Positions 37,099 to 52,508 of a stretch of 62,546 nt of DNA are shown piece by piece (the first letter of the stretch is position 1; each line of letters begins with the position of its first letter). The stretch comes from a virus. Below the pieces are notes generated by a model. The model saw only the letters and a list, made by a program, of their open reading frames with translations. It did not search any database and was not told the origin of the DNA. The stretch spans positions 1 to 62,546 of IMG/VR virus record IMGVR_UViG_3300021962_000102. One strand, written 5' to 3'. Position numbers and translations under genes: made by a program.

Positions 37099-37413
37099 TT
37101 AGAAGGGCAAATCGTCGTCAGCAACCTCTACTTTTTTCGGCTTTGGCTGAGGTCTCTGTCCTCCGCCTTGAGAAGGCTGCGGTACATCACCATTTGTCCA
37201 AACGATTTTCGCATTTCCAAGATAAACCTTTTGTTCTTTAGCTTCGCGCTCTTCTTTAGATTGCTCAACTGTAATAGAACCGTGATTTCCGAATTTGTCT
37301 TCGGCATCGTTAATTGTGATCGTCAAAGGCAAGTATTTACCCTTCTTACCATCAATTATTTTATCCTTAGGGATACTGTTTAAGTTAATACTAGCTTTTA
37401 GAATAACGGCCAT
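37099..37413 (-). CDS. ssb: Single-stranded DNA-binding protein
   Basis: 104 residues. Residues 1-75 are an OB-fold-like beta region (LPLTITINDAEDKFG, NAKIVWTNGD). A Gly/Pro/Gln-rich linker follows, and the protein ends in the acidic tip VADDDLPF, which is the SSB C-terminal peptide that recruits replication partners. The body is shorter than cellular SSB. It sits right upstream of the primase-helicase. Confidence 0.85.
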   Translation of the reverse strand: MAVILKASINLNSIPKDKIIDGKKGKYLPLTITINDAEDKFGNHGSITVEQSKEEREAKEQKVYLGNAKIVWTNGDVPQPSQGGGQRPQPKPKKVEVADDDLPF

Positions 37414-38782: not shown

Positions 38783-39532
38783 TTATAAATGGTCTAATAT
38801 TTGGGAATGATCTGTGTTTGCAATTAGTTTATCTATGGCGTCTTTTTTTATTTGGGACACCCTAACGTGAGCTGTTTCTACAAATATTCCTATTTTTTCA
38901 GCTATCTGTTTGGCATTGTGTTTTTCACAATCAAGACCATAGCTTAATCTAAGGACTTCATATTCTCTATCGTTAAGGTTCTTTTTCAAAAGACCCATTA
39001 GATAAGTATTAAGTATGTCTATATTATATGGCTCTGATGAGTCTGGTATGTCGTAGATATAGTTGTCGTCCACATTTGGTTGTTCATCAACAGATAAGAA
39101 TATGCTATTGAAGAACATTGCAACCATTTCTTTGTCTTTTCCACTGTCTTTTCTGATTTGGTTGATTTTGTGTTCGGGTATGCGTATATCACCTCTGTTT
39201 TTGTCGATGGCTCTACGTATTGCACCTTTGATTCTCTTTGATAAGAACGATATGATTGTTTTTTCTTTGTCATCGCTTCTTTCTACTTTTTCCCAATCTA
39301 TTTTATCAACAGCAGTAACCAAACCAATGTTGCCTTCCTGTATTAGGTCTTCTATGTTGAGAACGCCTATTGCTTGCTGTGTAGTAGTAAACTTTCTAGC
39401 AATGCCTTCTACAAGAGGTAAGAACATTGTTATAATGTCATCTCTATGTCTAGAATCTCTATCAACTCTAGATAAAAAGAATTCTACATCTTTTTTGTAT
39501 TTAACGTAATTCGTTATGTTGTACTTTTTCAT
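38783..39532 (-). CDS. Phage sigma factor (sigma-70 family)
   Basis: 249 residues. Region 2: EDLIQEGNIGLVTAVDKID near 68, then FLSKRIKGAIRRAID. Region 3: IRIPEHKINQIRK near 117. Region 4: LNDREYEVLRLSYGLDC near 187, with a helix-turn-helix ending VETAHVRVSQIKKDA. All parts of a small sigma factor are present, and region 1.1 is absent. It would redirect host RNA polymerase to phage promoters. It overlaps the HTH gene upstream by 32 nt. It is quite different from the RpoD-like sigma at 45984. Confidence 0.88.
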   Translation of the reverse strand: MKKYNITNYVKYKKDVEFFLSRVDRDSRHRDDIITMFLPLVEGIARKFTTTQQAIGVLNIEDLIQEGNIGLVTAVDKIDWEKVERSDDKEKTIISFLSKRIKGAIRRAIDKNRGDIRIPEHKINQIRKDSGKDKEMVAMFFNSIFLSVDEQPNVDDNYIYDIPDSSEPYNIDILNTYLMGLLKKNLNDREYEVLRLSYGLDCEKHNAKQIAEKIGIFVETAHVRVSQIKKDAIDKLIANTDHSQILDHL

Positions 39533-40154
39533 AATCCAAGTTCAGTAATTGTTTCTCTTTTTTGAGATCATCACTGATGTTTCTATGAATAGTACGAACA
39601 GAACACTTTAACACCTCTGATAATTTTGAAAATGTAATTTTCTCATTATTATCATGTACGTAAAGCATAGCATCATATATATCGTCTTCGTTTATTTTTT
39701 TACTCTTACCGATAATACTTCCAACTATACTTAGTTTTTCAGTGATAGATAACCCACAGCCTTCCTTGAATATAATCTTTCTGGATTTATTCTTAGGAGA
39801 GAGTTCGAAGTCATATTTGATTAAGTCTTGGATTATATTATGTTTTACTTCTTCACTCGCTGTAAAAGTAATAAAACCATTTAACTTATTTGATAAAAAT
39901 TCTAATATTTCTATTATCTCACTGAATTTTCTACTTGGATTCAAATAAAGTATAACAAGCATGTGCCATTTTAATGACTTATACGATGTTATCCTAGCCT
40001 TGCTTCTAAATAGATCGTAGCATTCATTGGTGCCGTTTTCGTAATAATAGCCCCAAACAAATTCTTGTGTGTAGGTATCGTTAATAGGATTCCTCCTATA
40101 GACGATGCGTCTATTATTAAGGAATTCTAAATTTCGATCTGGGAATTGTGACAT
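39501..40154 (-). CDS. Helix-turn-helix protein, candidate regulator or replication initiator
   Basis: 217 residues. The C-terminal ITFSKLSEVLKCSVRTIHRN near 177-196 is a clear helix-turn-helix. The N-terminal 150 residues are mixed alpha/beta with no known motif. The ATG lies inside a 48-bp inverted repeat that is present twice more at 50532 and 50635, so the protein may bind these sites and control itself. Alternatives are a Rep-like initiator or a repressor/activator. It is translated before, and overlaps, the sigma factor gene. Confidence 0.68.
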   Translation of the reverse strand: MSQFPDRNLEFLNNRRIVYRRNPINDTYTQEFVWGYYYENGTNECYDLFRSKARITSYKSLKWHMLVILYLNPSRKFSEIIEILEFLSNKLNGFITFTASEEVKHNIIQDLIKYDFELSPKNKSRKIIFKEGCGLSITEKLSIVGSIIGKSKKINEDDIYDAMLYVHDNNEKITFSKLSEVLKCSVRTIHRNISDDLKKEKQLLNLDYEKVQHNELR

Positions 40155-40194
40155 TTGCCCCCTACTATATTTTATCTATAACCCTAATGTCACA
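40147..40194. repeat. 48-bp inverted-repeat element, copy 1
   Basis: TGTGACAT and ATGTCACA lie at the outer ends of exactly 48 bp with an A/T-rich centre (TACTATATTTTATCTATAAC). The start codon of the HTH gene is within the left arm. The minus-strand centre contains TAGATAAAATATAG, which could be a -10 region, so bound protein would block transcription. Confidence 0.7.
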
Positions 40195-40255: not shown

Positions 40256-40750
40256 TCAACCAAATATCACTTCGTAGTTCTTTTCTGCGATTTCGCGCGT
40301 TGTGAACATTGATGCGAACTTTATTAAAGACTCTTTTTCGTGCCAAGATATGCGCTCAAATGCATCGTGTATAGCATTCTCAGCATCAAGCCTGTCCATC
40401 TTAGGTAACACATCGTCTTTTATGAAGTCAGTCATTTTTTTAATACTTGTGGCTTCTCCAAATTTGTATTTAACCTTGCACCTCTCATATGAGTCAACTG
40501 CTTTTTTATATAACTCTTTATAATCATCGTAAAGCATTCTATCGTCGTGTGTTCTTATATAATAAAGAATCGTTGAGTGGTCCATGCGCAATTGTCTGCC
40601 AAGTTCAGTTGGACCAACAATTTTAAATAGAACGTTGCTTATTGCTATTTTAGGAAGAACTATATCTCTACGTCTAGATCTAATAAGTGGAGCATCGATG
40701 TTGAAATAAAAATCTTGTATTGTTTCTTTTGCTATTGTTACGTATTTCAT
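40256..40750 (-). CDS. DnaA domain IV-like DNA-binding protein
   Basis: 164 residues. RSRRRDIVLPKIAISNVLF near 24-42, followed by VGPTELGRQLRMDHSTILYY near 46-65, resembles the duplex-binding domain IV of DnaA, where DHTTVLHA is the signature; here it is DHSTILYY. The rest is helical. There is no AAA+ ATPase, so it binds DNA but cannot act as full DnaA. It could mark a phage origin or compete for host DnaA boxes. Confidence 0.65.
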   Translation of the reverse strand: MKYVTIAKETIQDFYFNIDAPLIRSRRRDIVLPKIAISNVLFKIVGPTELGRQLRMDHSTILYYIRTHDDRMLYDDYKELYKKAVDSYERCKVKYKFGEATSIKKMTDFIKDDVLPKMDRLDAENAIHDAFERISWHEKESLIKFASMFTTREIAEKNYEVIFG

Positions 40751-43978: not shown

Positions 43979-44055
43979 TGGCACCCCTGACAGGAATCGA
44001 ACCTGTAACCTACGCATTAGAAGTGCGTTGCTCTATCCAGTTGAGCTACAGGGGC
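43979..44055 (-). tRNA. tRNA-Arg (UCU)
   Basis: A complete cloverleaf on the minus strand: acceptor GCCCCTG with CAGGGGT (one G-U pair), D-arm with TAGCTCAACTGGATAGA, anticodon loop CTTCTAA between ACGCA and TGCGT, and T-arm with GGTTCGATTCC. The 3' CCA is encoded. AGA, read by this tRNA, appears frequently in the phage genes (many 'aga' codons), so it may aid translation. Confidence 0.93.
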
Positions 44056-44063
44056 ATAATAGT

Positions 44064-44139
44064 ACGCTCGGTGGGACTCGAACCCACGTGTGACCAGTTA
44101 CCCTTTCTACAAGGTATAAGCTTGAGGGGATACGAGCGT
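44064..44139 (-). tRNA. Degenerate or unusual tRNA-like element
   Basis: 76 nt, directly upstream of tRNA-Arg in the same direction. A perfect 7-bp acceptor stem (ACGCTCG/CGAGCGT) and a perfect T-arm (GTGGG TTCGAGT CCCAC) are present. However, the middle does not fold into a standard D-arm and anticodon arm. The best hairpins are CAAG/CTTG with loop CTTATAC, and CCTT/AAGG. The 3' end continues ACTA, not CCA. It may be a decayed tRNA, an odd truncated tRNA, or a tRNA-like structure. Confidence 0.45.
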
Positions 44140-45893: not shown

Positions 45894-46005
45894 TTTTTTC
45901 TGATTTTTTATCTAGGTATTTTGACAATAAGAATACTGATACTAAAAACAATAGGAATATTGAAAACGGTATAATCTTGTTTACTACAGTAAGATACTTG
46001 AGCAT
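45877..46005 (-). CDS. Tiny membrane protein (42 aa)
   Basis: One predicted transmembrane helix (IIPFSIFLLFLVSVFLL) followed by a Lys/Glu-rich cytoplasmic-type tail ending NEKDK. Starts inside the end of the sigma-factor gene and overlaps the next gene. Small early phage membrane proteins often interfere with the host, but no role can be assigned. Confidence 0.5.
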   Translation of the reverse strand: MLKYLTVVNKIIPFSIFLLFLVSVFLLSKYLDKKSEKNEKDK

Positions 46006-46844
46006 TTTTTATTTCTTTTTAATCTATTTAATCCGCTGTCTTTTAGTTGACGCGCTTTTTCATCTGGAATATCTAATTCCATAGCTATTTGCTTAATAGT
46101 CTTGGCATGTTCAAACGCGCCTAAATACATTGACACAACCTTGAAGTGCATTGGATTTAAAACCTTCTCTGCAGTTTTCCAAAACAGATTTACTGTAGAC
46201 TCCTGTGTTATATCTTCATCTGGTTGTGCGTAGGTTGTGTTAGGCAACACATCAGATATTGTAGTTGATGATTCATCTCCAGACAGCGTAGCGTCGCTAG
46301 ACGTCATCTCTGCGGTGTGGTTGAACATGTCTAAAACAAAACTCTCTTCAACGCCAAGATGTTCTGCAATCTCAAAAGGTTCTGGTTCTCTAAACAGTTT
46401 CTGCTCGAGCTCAGACGATGCCTTGCGTATCCTATTCATATTGGCATTCCTATTGCCTGGCGTGTATATCTGCTTTGACTTAGTGTCAATTGAGTGTAGT
46501 ATACTCTGCCTGATCCACCACACGGCGAACGATATGAACTTAAAACCTCTTGTTGGATCGAACCTGTCAACAGCCTTAATAAGGCCGATGTTGCCTTCTG
46601 ATATTAAGTCTTCAAGCTTCATACCAGATACTTGATACTGCTTGGCGACAGATACAACAAACCTTAAGTTTGCGCGCGTTAGTTTTTCTTTTGCAACTGG
46701 ATCCCCTGTTTCGTAAATGATTTTAGTTAATTCAAATTCTTCTTCTGGCGTTAATAGTTTTTCTTTAGAAAGCTCTAAAAAGTATTTATCTATTGATTTG
46801 CTTTCGCGTTTAGTAATCTGATTGGCGATCTTAAGTTGGCGCAT
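45984..46844 (-). CDS. RpoD-like sigma factor of Bacteroidota type
   Basis: 286 residues. The start MRQLKIANQITKRES and the 286-residue length match the compact housekeeping RpoD of Bacteroidota, indicating capture from a host. Region 2 is strongly conserved: LTRANLRFVVSVAKQYQ, DLISEGNIGLIKAVDRFDP, RGFKFISFAVWWIRQSIL. Region 3.0 (YTPGNRNANMNRI) and especially region 4 (LNPMHFKVVSMYLGAFEH, then IPDEKARQLKDSGLNRLK) are much altered, so core-binding and -10 reading are kept while -35 recognition probably changed. Likely drives phage middle or late promoters. Confidence 0.9.
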   Translation of the reverse strand: MRQLKIANQITKRESKSIDKYFLELSKEKLLTPEEEFELTKIIYETGDPVAKEKLTRANLRFVVSVAKQYQVSGMKLEDLISEGNIGLIKAVDRFDPTRGFKFISFAVWWIRQSILHSIDTKSKQIYTPGNRNANMNRIRKASSELEQKLFREPEPFEIAEHLGVEESFVLDMFNHTAEMTSSDATLSGDESSTTISDVLPNTTYAQPDEDITQESTVNLFWKTAEKVLNPMHFKVVSMYLGAFEHAKTIKQIAMELDIPDEKARQLKDSGLNRLKRNKKCSSILL

Positions 46845-48329: not shown

Positions 48330-48387
48330 AAAAAAATAAAATTAAGGTTAAGTGAAAATTAAAGGTTATAACTAGTGTGTATAGCAA

Positions 48388-50219: not shown

Positions 50220-50432
50220 TTAAAGCTCGTTAGATTCAACTACAGCCGTGCTAAACGATGCGGCAAGGATAACTAGGCCAAGCACAACCCGCACGTTCTC
50301 ATCAATAGCATAGTAATCCATTGACCCAGTAAACAATACATAGAAAAAGTAAATAACAAACCAAAATAAAACCGATGACACAATAAGAACACCAATAAAC
50401 CGAACGAGTGAAGTGATAACTTCCATAATCAA
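50220..50432 (-). CDS. Small two-helix membrane protein
   Basis: 70 residues with two transmembrane segments, about 10-35 (IGVLIVSSVLFWFVIYFFYV) and 48-63 (VVLGLVILAASFSTAV). Ends in an acidic tip. Transcribed away from the paired inverted repeats at 50532 and 50635, which may control it. Unknown function. Confidence 0.55.
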   Translation of the reverse strand: MIMEVITSLVRFIGVLIVSSVLFWFVIYFFYVLFTGSMDYYAIDENVRVVLGLVILAASFSTAVVESNEL

Positions 50433-50531
50433 GGTGGATAAAGAGTTAAAGTGAAAAAAACTAAGAGGAGGTTCAAAACCCTATCTCACACTAAGTGAAT
50501 AGGAAATGTCACCAAACTAAGCTGAAAAAAC

Positions 50532-50579
50532 TGTGACATTTGCCTTATAAGTAGTATATAGTAACGGGCTATTGTCACA
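50532..50579. repeat. 48-bp inverted-repeat element, copy 2
   Basis: TGTGACATTTGCC and GGGCTATTGTCACA bound a 48-bp element, the same length as copies at 40147 and 50635. An extra half-site ATGTCAC at 50506 precedes it. The centre is TTATAAGTAGTATATAGTA, A/T-rich. Confidence 0.75.
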
Positions 50580-50634
50580 CTTTTGGCGGAGTTTAAGGTT
50601 ACTGGTAATGTCACCAGGTGAACCTCAAAAAAAC

Positions 50635-50682
50635 TGTGACATTAGCCTTATAAGTAATAGATAGTAACAGGCTATTGTCACA
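50635..50682. repeat. 48-bp inverted-repeat element, copy 3
   Basis: TGTGACATTAGCC pairs with GGCTATTGTCACA (12 of 13 positions) within exactly 48 bp. Together with the half-site at 50608 it repeats copy 2 at a ~103-bp period. Probably a protein-binding array (operator, origin iteron or partition-type site). Confidence 0.75.
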
Positions 50683-50690
50683 CTTTTAGT

Positions 50691-50852
50691 TTACTCTGCT
50701 ATGAAGGTCAAACCTTGGCAGGTAAAGAAGTCGCTCTCACTTGTCTTGAAGGTTTTAGGTAGCTCGTTGAGCCTGTGACCTTCGTAAGTTTTTCCTTTGT
50801 ACTGTAACTTGATACGGCGACTGTCGCCTGAATAAAAGAATTTTAGGAACAT
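50691..50852 (-). CDS. Small hypothetical protein (53 aa)
   Basis: Chosen start is the ATG at 50852 (MFLKFFYSGDSRRIKL). The ATG at 50891 is only 4 bp from the -10 box and could not be in the transcript. The leader CTTAAATCCTC before 50852 is also found before the gene starting at 51920, which supports this choice. Short basic beta-type protein, unknown function. Confidence 0.55.
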   Translation of the reverse strand: MFLKFFYSGDSRRIKLQYKGKTYEGHRLNELPKTFKTSESDFFTCQGLTFIAE

Positions 50853-50895
50853 ACCTGAGGATTTAAGGTTTAGGGTGATCGCACTGATCATTTGT

Positions 50896-50975: not shown

Positions 50976-51209
50976 TTACTTCAATGCTTCTCGCACGAAT
51001 TTAGGTAGGTTGTTACTATTAGTGTAATTCCCGTATTTATTAAAGCAAGGCATTGCTTCAAACTTAGCTTTAAACAGCTCGAACACTTTATCGTGGTCGT
51101 AGGTCATTTCTTCACCTTTAGTATTCTTAAAAGTGATAGTTAAACCTTTGCCGAGCATATTCTTGGCAATTACAAAGCGATTCTTGGTGACTGAGGTTGA
51201 GGTAGACAT
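50976..51209 (-). CDS. Tandem paralogue 3 of a small protein family
   Basis: 77 residues. Core: TKNRFVIAKNMLGKGLTITF, then FKAKFEAMPCFNKYGNYTNS and NNLPKFVREALK. Near-copy of the proteins at 51326 and 51666. Basic, one conserved Cys. Probably nucleic-acid or host-target binding; unknown. Has its own promoter and terminator. Confidence 0.7.
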   Translation of the reverse strand: MSTSTSVTKNRFVIAKNMLGKGLTITFKNTKGEEMTYDHDKVFELFKAKFEAMPCFNKYGNYTNSNNLPKFVREALK

Positions 51210-51248
51210 AGGAATGAGGTTTTAGACTGAGCGTCGATGCTCATCGTT

Positions 51249-51285
51249 ATTATCCAATAGAGACTGTTTTAGGATTGTGTATAGC
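51249..51285 (-). promoter_or_regulatory. Minus-strand promoter, GCTATACAC-N22-GATAAT
   Basis: GCTATACAC at 51277-51285 and GATAAT at 51249-51254, spacer 22 bp. Drives the paralogue starting at 51209. Confidence 0.72.
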
Positions 51286-51292
51286 AAATTAA

Positions 51293-51319
51293 AAAGAAAA
51301 AAAGAGGAGCTTTCGCTCC
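51293..51319 (-). terminator. GNRA-loop terminator
   Basis: Minus strand GGAGC-GAAA-GCTCC followed by TCTTTTTTT. Ends the paralogue at 51326. Confidence 0.85.
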
Positions 51320-51325
51320 CCTTAG

Positions 51326-51550
51326 TCACTTCAAAGCCTCTCTGATAAACTTTGGTAAGTTATTACTATTCGTATAGTTTCCATACTTATTGAAGCAAGG
51401 CATCTCATCGAACTTACTCTTGAACATCTCGTATACCTTGTCGTGCTCGTAGGTTACTTCCTCACCTTTGGCATTCTTGAATACAATAGTCAGTTCCTTA
51501 CCAATCATATTCTTGGCGATCACGAAACGGTTCTTGGTTACTTGTGGCAT
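51326..51550 (-). CDS. Tandem paralogue 2 of a small protein family
   Basis: 74 residues, MPQVTKNRFVIAKNMIGKEL, with FNKYGNYTNSNNLPKFIREA at the end. About three quarters identical by eye to the protein at 50976. Codon-level differences are larger than protein differences, which suggests selection on the protein. Unknown function. Confidence 0.7.
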   Translation of the reverse strand: MPQVTKNRFVIAKNMIGKELTIVFKNAKGEEVTYEHDKVYEMFKSKFDEMPCFNKYGNYTNSNNLPKFIREALK

Positions 51551-51591
51551 AATAAGTGGTGTTAGACGTAAGCTTTAGTGCTTACATAGGG

Positions 51592-51628
51592 ATTATCCAT
51601 AGGAGCTCGTTAGAATCTTGTGTATAGC
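51592..51628 (-). promoter_or_regulatory. Minus-strand promoter, GCTATACAC-N22-GATAAT
   Basis: GCTATACAC at 51620-51628 and GATAAT at 51592-51597, spacer 22 bp, followed by CCCTATGTAAG. Drives the paralogue starting at 51550. Confidence 0.72.
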
Positions 51629-51640
51629 ATACATAAAAGA

Positions 51641-51660
51641 AAAAAAGGGACCGAAGTCCC
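51641..51660 (-). terminator. UUCG-loop terminator
   Basis: Minus strand GGGAC-TTCG-GTCCC followed by TTTTTT. Ends the paralogue at 51666. Confidence 0.85.
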
Positions 51661-51665
51661 TCGTC

Positions 51666-51920
51666 TTACAGCATACTCGCCATATCTCTTACGAACTTAG
51701 GCAAGTTGTTACTGTTGGTGTAGTTACCGTACTTAGCGAAGCATGGCATCACTTCAAAGCGAGACTTGTTTGCCTCATACACCTTATCGTGATCGTATGT
51801 ACACTCTTCGCCTTTGTGGTTAGTGAATGAGATGATGATTCCTTTACCTAGCATGCTCTTCGCGATAACGAAACGCTTCTTGGCTACTGGTGCTGGGGTG
51901 GGGGTGGCTGTCTTAGACAT
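51666..51920 (-). CDS. Tandem paralogue 1 of a small protein family
   Basis: 84 residues from the ATG at 51920 (MSKTATPTPAPVAKKRF). The longer in-frame start at 51962 overlaps the promoter and is rejected. The core VIAKSMLGKGIIISF and FAKYGNYTNSNNLPKF match the other two copies; the N-terminal Pro/Thr-rich extension is unique. First gene of the minus-strand block after the divergent region, so likely expressed very early. Confidence 0.68.
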   Translation of the reverse strand: MSKTATPTPAPVAKKRFVIAKSMLGKGIIISFTNHKGEECTYDHDKVYEANKSRFEVMPCFAKYGNYTNSNNLPKFVRDMASML

Positions 51921-51948
51921 GATTAGAGGATTTAAGTTAGACATAGGT

Positions 51949-51985
51949 ATTATCCATGGCAACTCGTAAGGATCTCGTGTATAGC
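51949..51985 (-). promoter_or_regulatory. Leftward promoter of the divergent region
   Basis: GCTATACAC at 51977-51985 and GATAAT at 51949-51954, spacer 22 bp, followed by ACCTATGTC. It is the outermost member of the family and begins the minus-strand transcription block. Confidence 0.72.
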
Positions 51986-52262
51986 ATAAACAAACAATAC
52001 CCTAAACATATTCAGAAACAATACACCAGCAGTCGCATCAACACTCAGTCAGTGGCGTAAAAGGCCTAAACCATATAGGTAAACGGTAAATAGGGCCCAG
52101 GCCCGGGTTTACAGATTGACTTTCCTAAACAGGGGCTTCCTCTCCCCGGAGGGGGCCAACACCCAACTTCTATACATCTAACAAAAAAAATACACCTCAC
52201 CTCTATACATCTAACAACTAAATTAGCATTAATGGGAAGTCTTTAAATGTGATAGTGATAAT
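51986..52262. other. Divergent intergenic control region with GC islands
   Basis: About 280 bp with no gene, between the minus-strand and plus-strand blocks. It holds two GC-rich islands in otherwise A/T-rich DNA: GGGCCC and CCCGGG near 52094-52110, and CCCCGGAGGGG near 52145-52155, the latter able to form a hairpin. It also has a 16-bp direct repeat (see separate entry). Candidate for a replication origin, late promoter region or packaging signal. Confidence 0.6.
52169..52217 (+). repeat. Direct repeat TCTATACATCTAACAA (two copies)
   Basis: The 16-bp sequence occurs at 52169-52184 and 52202-52217, 33 bp apart (three helical turns). It shares CTATACA with the upstream block of the leftward promoters, but on the other strand. 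Probably activator or sigma sites for the rightward genes starting at 52263. Confidence 0.6.
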
Positions 52263-52508
52263 ATGGCAAAACAAAAGTTATCTGCGCAGGCATTGCGCGA
52301 CAAAAGAGCTAGGGATTTGGCAGAGGCAAAGAGTCCGCGTAGGACTCGGATGCGTGCTGAGAACCAGAAGAAGCGCAGGGACGCTGAGAAGGATGGTCAG
52401 GACGTTGATGGAAAAGACTACGACCACAATTCTAAGCGCTTTGTGAGTGTTAAGACCAACCGTGGAGGCCACGGAAGGGGTACAAAAGTGTATAATACTA
52501 AGAGGTAA
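52263..52508 (+). CDS. Small very basic protein
   Basis: 81 residues, strongly basic and helical (RDKRARDLAEAKSPRRTRMR), ending KTNRGGHGRGTKVYNTKR. Likely binds nucleic acid; similar small proteins occur in marine phages. First gene of the rightward block; its ATG directly follows a GATAAT string. Confidence 0.65.
   Translation: MAKQKLSAQALRDKRARDLAEAKSPRRTRMRAENQKKRRDAEKDGQDVDGKDYDHNSKRFVSVKTNRGGHGRGTKVYNTKR

Follow-up and report, generated by a model that had tools for sequence, protein, structure and literature searches.

A conserved inverted-repeat element of about 47 bp, probably an operator, at the start of an HTH-protein gene in a group of uncultivated marine phages

The IMG/VR virus record IMGVR_UViG_3300021962_000102 was analysed over its whole length of 62,546 bases (hereafter, the window). 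The record encodes a portal protein, a capsid-type protein, GroEL, an endolysin and a ribonucleotide reductase, and also a thymidylate synthase, an ERF annealing protein and a primase/helicase. The portal protein is related to those of Cellulophaga, Maribacter and Flavobacterium phages, and a group of putative Flavobacteriaceae phages carrying GroEL together with a sigma-70-type gene has been reported (Nishimura et al. 2017, PMC5332604). Three copies of an inverted repeat (TGTGACA...TGTCACA) are found in the window, one of them at the start of a gene for an HTH protein:

38783-39532, minus strand: sigma-70-type sigma factor of 249 aa (Pfam Sigma70_r2 and r4; phrog_351)
39501-40154, minus strand: HTH protein of 217 aa, with a C-terminal HTH at about residues 153-208; the probable binder of the element
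40147-40194, minus strand: element copy 1, TGTGACATTAGGGTTATAGATAAAATATAGTAGGGGGCAAATGTCACA (minus-strand reading), covering the HTH start codon
50506-50682, no strand assigned: diverged tandem duplication of about 103 bp that contains copies 2 and 3 and both ATGTCAC strings
50532-50579, plus strand: element copy 2, in non-coding DNA flanked by the minus-strand early ORFs 50220-50432 and 50691-50891
50635-50682, plus strand: element copy 3, a tandem duplicate of copy 2
52080-52262, plus strand: intergenic region between divergent early and late genes, preceding the first late gene (52263-52508); an element lies here in relatives and none in the window

Each of the three copies is 48 bp long, and their 8-bp outer arms contain 0, 1 and 1 mismatch in copies 1, 2 and 3, respectively. 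A search for 8-bp arms placed 32 bp apart, with up to three mismatches, returned three matches against 0.34 expected, and no shuffled sequence reached three; when a two-arm profile made from the relatives alone was run over the 62.5 kb, the same three copies and no others were recovered, with scores of 39-45, all shuffles remaining below 8. The preliminary description of this DNA, which had placed three 48-bp inverted repeats at these positions, had if anything understated them. It was also right in its claims that copy 1 covers the ATG of the HTH ORF (40154-40152, minus strand), a start that is supported because homologues begin with MSxxRN at the same place, and that copies 2 and 3 form a tandem arrangement of about 103 bp: their local alignment score is 120, compared to 45 for the best of 200 shuffles, and the duplication was not called by Tandem Repeats Finder. 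The length given there, exactly 48 bp, is true of the window and widens to 46-48 bp across the relatives. Two ATGTCAC strings at 50506 and 50608 had furthermore been described as additional half-sites; the strings are present as part of the duplication, but neither matches the extended half-site of about 20 bp and their reading as binding half-sites did not hold. As a 7-mer, ATGTCAC is not rare in the window (6 found, 7.5 expected), and all six occurrences lie inside or adjoining element sites. This placement hinted at an avoidance of stray sites, which was not seen in 1.17 Mb of the relatives (ratio 1.06).

The relatives investigated are 69 IMG/VR loci obtained from a scan with the HTH protein, to which their homologues show 44-59% identity. 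At the HTH start the element was present, whole or in part, in 69/69 loci, and in its regular form of 46-48 bp in 67 of them; the two exceptions are L021, with a 36-bp version that is shorter by about one helical turn, and L056, where mainly the right half is kept. Conservation of the sites in relatives, on which the preliminary description had staked its proposal, thus turned out to be strong. A pattern scan of viral sequences gave at least 119 further element stretches among the matches listed. In total 275 copies were counted in the relatives, 115 at HTH starts and 160 elsewhere, a count that includes redundant contigs and, among the 160, a few chance or coding matches; the distinct element sequences number 86 at HTH starts and about 120 at distal positions. 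The length of 46-48 bp is shared by 267 of the 275 copies (114/115 at HTH starts, 153/160 distal). There are usually one or two distal copies per genome, located 5-9 kb from the copy at the HTH start and in non-coding DNA. When 24 long contigs were searched with a stricter, exact pattern, each had one to four matches and none a scatter of them. Literature searches found no description of the element.

Two side observations concern the contigs themselves. IMGVR_UViG_3300047157_000162, a contig of 129.5 kb, carries two different HTH-element modules (L005 and L012) and probably represents two phage genomes joined in assembly. L005, L061, L090 and L187 share, near their early-type copies, homologous stretches that look like the sequencing-adapter string CTCTTCCGATCT (AGATCGGAAGAG); these stretches vary between contigs, suggesting natural sequence, with contamination as a less likely source.

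Aligned copies show that the half-site comprises about 20 bp and that both halves correspond to TGTGACAWTAGSCTRTTA, the right half being followed by CT. Both arms show little or no variation in TGACA and in the G at position 11, and the AGTAA of the right half is 95-100% conserved. The variable, A/T-rich centre noticed from the window alone was also found in the relatives, in which it is 79-91% A/T, and distal copies often have a longer palindrome, with AAAA(G/C) before and CTTTT after the element. Codon 2 of the HTH gene, a serine, falls in the right arm; this codon is TCA in 57/57 genes, while TCA accounts for 148 of the 637 other serines in the same genes, which indicates that the constraint acts on DNA. 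Position 8 (TGTGACA[8]TAG; noticed in L001-L191) behaves differently from the rest of the arm. Among distal copies the two arms are complementary at this position in 5/119 cases against 32.5 expected, and after clustering at 90% identity in 2/60 against 18.3 expected. Clustering at 80% leaves 13 sequences, of which one is complementary (4.0 expected, P about 0.05), and with so few sequences the independence of the effect from shared descent is unsettled, strong as it is in number. The combinations observed are many (TT, AA, CA, TG, CT, AG, CC, GG), so that it is not a matter of one frozen pair.

The HTH gene is closely linked to the sigma factor, whose start (39532) overlaps the end of the HTH gene (39501). 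In all 68 loci with enough sequence the sigma factor follows the HTH gene, and a gene order is kept that consists of HTH, sigma, ERF, DUF3799, the gene at 37099, primase/helicase and thymidylate synthase. For the 217-aa protein the Pfam family HTH_11 stays below the cut-off, and it is seen in 52/55 homologues. The AlphaFold2 model has a mean pLDDT of 88, and residues 153-208 align to generic HTH domains, including MntR and sigma-type domains, with a VIA-align Z of about 5. Searches of the PDB by sequence and with Foldseek gave no match for the whole protein beyond generic HTH folds in its C-terminal part; residues 1-138, when folded alone (pLDDT 89), likewise had no PDB match and nothing above Z 5. 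These negative searches do not establish a new fold. A predicted viral protein, A0A516MIB4, does match the HTH protein well (Foldseek E 1.2e-10, TM 0.56, 26% identity), and neither the HTH nor the sigma protein has a close match in INPHARED. As a guess, a protein of two domains could account for half-sites of 20 bp.

Two other ORFs of the window may be mentioned here. A 164-aa ORF located just upstream of the HTH gene (40256-40750) is weakly similar to the C-terminal DNA-binding domain of DnaA (E 0.03) and was not found in the loci of the relatives. A second sigma-70-type factor, encoded at 45984-46844, is more canonical, with regions 1.2, 2, 3 and 4.

As regards the gene with which the element is associated, a scan with the sigma factor yielded 55 loci, and the element was found at the HTH start in 52/52 of those where this start is on the contig; of the others, one starts within the HTH gene and L255 only at the sigma gene. 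The 53-kb contig G041/L253 has the sigma factor and lacks both the HTH gene and the element. MW202828 and Maribacter phage Panino, two complete genomes related through their portal proteins, have no homologues of the HTH or sigma proteins, and no element was found in their 138 kb. The element is therefore absent from 3/3 related records that do not encode the HTH protein. On seven contigs that carry distal elements, both the HTH gene and the sigma factor are lacking, which suggests that in these cases the HTH-sigma module simply falls outside the contig. From these comparisons of sequence the element goes with the HTH gene, the three negatives being a small number. Its presence at the HTH start in 69 loci and its absence where that gene is missing suggest that the element is recognised by a DNA-binding protein, probably the product of that gene, although the binder could instead be a host protein or the sigma factor.

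In the relatives, the main distal copy is situated in the divergent region that separates the early genes from the first late one, a homologue of the gene at window position 52263. Downstream of the distal element, at a distance of 19-28 bp, a -10-like motif, GTRAn(T/A)TA, was found in about 51 cases against about 2.6 expected, and smaller clusters of this motif are centred near 35, 48 and 55 bp; overall the motif occurs within 62 bp in 71/125 distinct distal copies, most of these at the first of the late genes. Other distal copies form a second class, placed within the early operon, and have no recognisable promoter that adjoins them consistently. In two relatives a fourth copy was identified (L261, 1111-1156; L262, 1840-1885); it follows the capsid-type gene, precedes the next structural gene by 27-31 bp, is in reverse orientation and stands beside a GC hairpin. 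The window keeps the divergent region at 52080-52262 without an element there and has a duplicated early-operon copy instead; lacking a copy at the late promoter, it cannot use the element for late activation.

The same region of the window consists of long structured non-coding DNA with GGGCCC, GGCCCGGG, GGGGGCCAACACCC and a duplicated CTATACATCTAACA. A similar structured region is kept upstream of the distal element of the relatives, and it may thus be a promoter region in its own right or an origin. On the early side, three tandem paralogous ORFs of the VTKNRFVIAKNM.. family are encoded on the minus strand at 50976-51962, each preceded by TGTGTATAGC / GCTATACACA, a motif also present at 48376. 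These repeats look like a repeated early-promoter cassette. As a partner of the early-type element copies, the early motif TGTGTATAGC was discarded, being present in just 7/54.

The explanation that we consider probable is that the element serves as a DNA operator, about 47 bp in length, to which the HTH protein most likely binds and through which this protein would regulate its own gene and control other operons. Bound to the copy over its own start codon, the HTH protein would limit its own synthesis and that of the sigma factor that follows, and at the distal copies it would control the neighbouring operons. In the relatives, where the site stands just upstream of the -10-like motif, activation of late genes together with the phage sigma factor appears the most likely role; in the window, which has lost the late-promoter copy and carries two early-operon copies, an effect on early genes would be expected. 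We infer both the identity of the bound protein and the direction of control, repression or activation. As would be expected of the operator of an autoregulated gene, the element is conserved together with the HTH gene (69/69 loci; absent in three records without it). The preliminary description had left the choice between a repressor or activator, an initiator at an origin and a partition-like complex, with the HTH protein as the candidate binder. Two things favour a regulator, namely the presence of the sigma factor behind the HTH gene in 68/68 loci and the distal copies before the late -10-like motif; nothing in the analyses made supported partition.

An origin deserves some consideration, in that the HTH protein might be a replication initiator that acts at a distal non-coding origin and autoregulates at its own start. 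Its gene heads a replication module of conserved order, the distal region of the relatives is long, structured, partly conserved, non-coding and located between divergent operons, and the cumulative GC skew has its minimum near 50 kb. On the other hand, GC skew tracks gene orientation and offers no separate signal, the usual one or two distal inverted repeats per genome do not make an iteron array, and the window retains the divergent region yet has lost its element. Moreover, the constant neighbour is a sigma factor and not a helicase loader, and a profile comparison with the annotated replication initiation protein of Maribacter phage Panino revealed no relation, making this a minor possibility. 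It also seems unlikely that the phage sigma factor and RNA polymerase use the element itself as a promoter, with GTGACA as -35 box and the A/T-rich stretch before AGTAA as -10 box, in which case the length of 46-48 bp would reflect a spacer of 16-18 bp. The strong conservation of AGTAA (95-100%) and the orientation of most copies, with the HTH gene or the late operon downstream, would fit such a promoter, and a consensus scan gave GTGACA-18-TATAGT and GTGACA-18-GATAGT in copies 2 and 3; these are two hits compared to 1.0 in shuffles, however, and the second base of the -10 box, normally the most conserved one, is A in just 56-58%. In addition, the right arm TGTCACA and the left TAGSCT, which a promoter does not need, are conserved like the supposed boxes, some copies are reversed relative to the downstream gene, and contig G041 has the sigma factor without the element.

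The remaining readings concern the structure or rearrangement of nucleic acid. Position 8, if selected to be non-complementary though its identity changes, would suggest that the element acts via DNA structure, either extruded or folded with an obligatory mismatch or in a strictly asymmetric complex of the HTH protein with sigma factor and RNA polymerase; this we regard as quite unlikely. An mRNA hairpin that hides the start codon or terminates transcription is disfavoured and very improbable. The strands can fold (-17.2 kcal/mol for copy 3 with RNA parameters), the median z is about -3 to -4 relative to simple shuffles, and T-runs follow copies 2 and 3 on the minus strand. Against an RNA stem, the arms show no covariation across 86 HTH-start and 119 distal copies, paired cells being at or below the expectation for independent arms nearly everywhere the arms vary, and one position is kept unpaired. 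Besides, the distal copies are non-coding and stand upstream of genes on either strand, the region has no called terminator-like site and the element matches no Rfam family, the only Rfam hits in the window being two tRNAs on the minus strand (43982-44055 and 44063-44139). Finally, site-specific recombination or inversion between oppositely oriented copies is disfavoured as well and hardly credible: the copies do flank a segment of 5-10 kb, mostly in opposite orientation, but their centres, where strand exchange requires identity, differ between copies within one genome, and an inverted arrangement of the segment was seen in none of the loci.

Among known systems, protein p4 of Bacillus phage phi29 binds four sites between the early promoters A2c and A2b and the late promoter A3; these sites are imperfect, asymmetric inverted repeats with the consensus CTTTTT-15 bp-AAAATG, and p4 represses the early promoters while activating the late one (PMC3100819). 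By analogy, p4 is the nearest functional parallel to the operator regulon favoured here. In both cases a small phage regulator, here a probable one, goes with several sites that are imperfect, asymmetric inverted repeats and constant in length, and in many relatives, as in phi29, sites precede the late promoter within the divergent early/late region, where the window has no copy. The sequences, in contrast, are unrelated (CTTTTT-15 bp-AAAATG in p4 sites, TGTGACA...TGTCACA over 47 bp here), and a copy over the regulator's own start codon and the phage sigma factor with which the HTH gene is paired set the present system apart. No relationship between p4 and the HTH protein was found either in the PDB searches by sequence and with Foldseek, so the parallel is one of working alike and not of membership.

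Phage late-gene systems are known to pair a sigma factor with a co-activator, as T4 gp55 with gp33/gp45, or T4 MotA. Like them, the phages studied here have a sigma factor of their own that, with an accessory DNA-binding protein, is a candidate for a late switch; they differ in that the visible part is a long palindromic operator. Autoregulated plasmid replication initiators of the RepE/pi type have an inverted repeat at their own start and further sites elsewhere. The HTH gene shares with these the inverted repeat at its own start and the other, distant sites; it differs in that the element has no iteron array and the HTH protein no detected initiator homology.

In an uncultivated marine phage group, which is large and whose structural relatives infect Flavobacteriia, a single consensus of the probable operator would mark the master regulator, the sigma factor paired with it and those operons that it probably controls. 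At the thresholds used, Pfam, PHROGs and the PDB contain no characterised member of the HTH protein's family, and binding of the HTH protein, if shown for one site, would define a new family of phage regulators and open the early/late switch of these phages to direct study.
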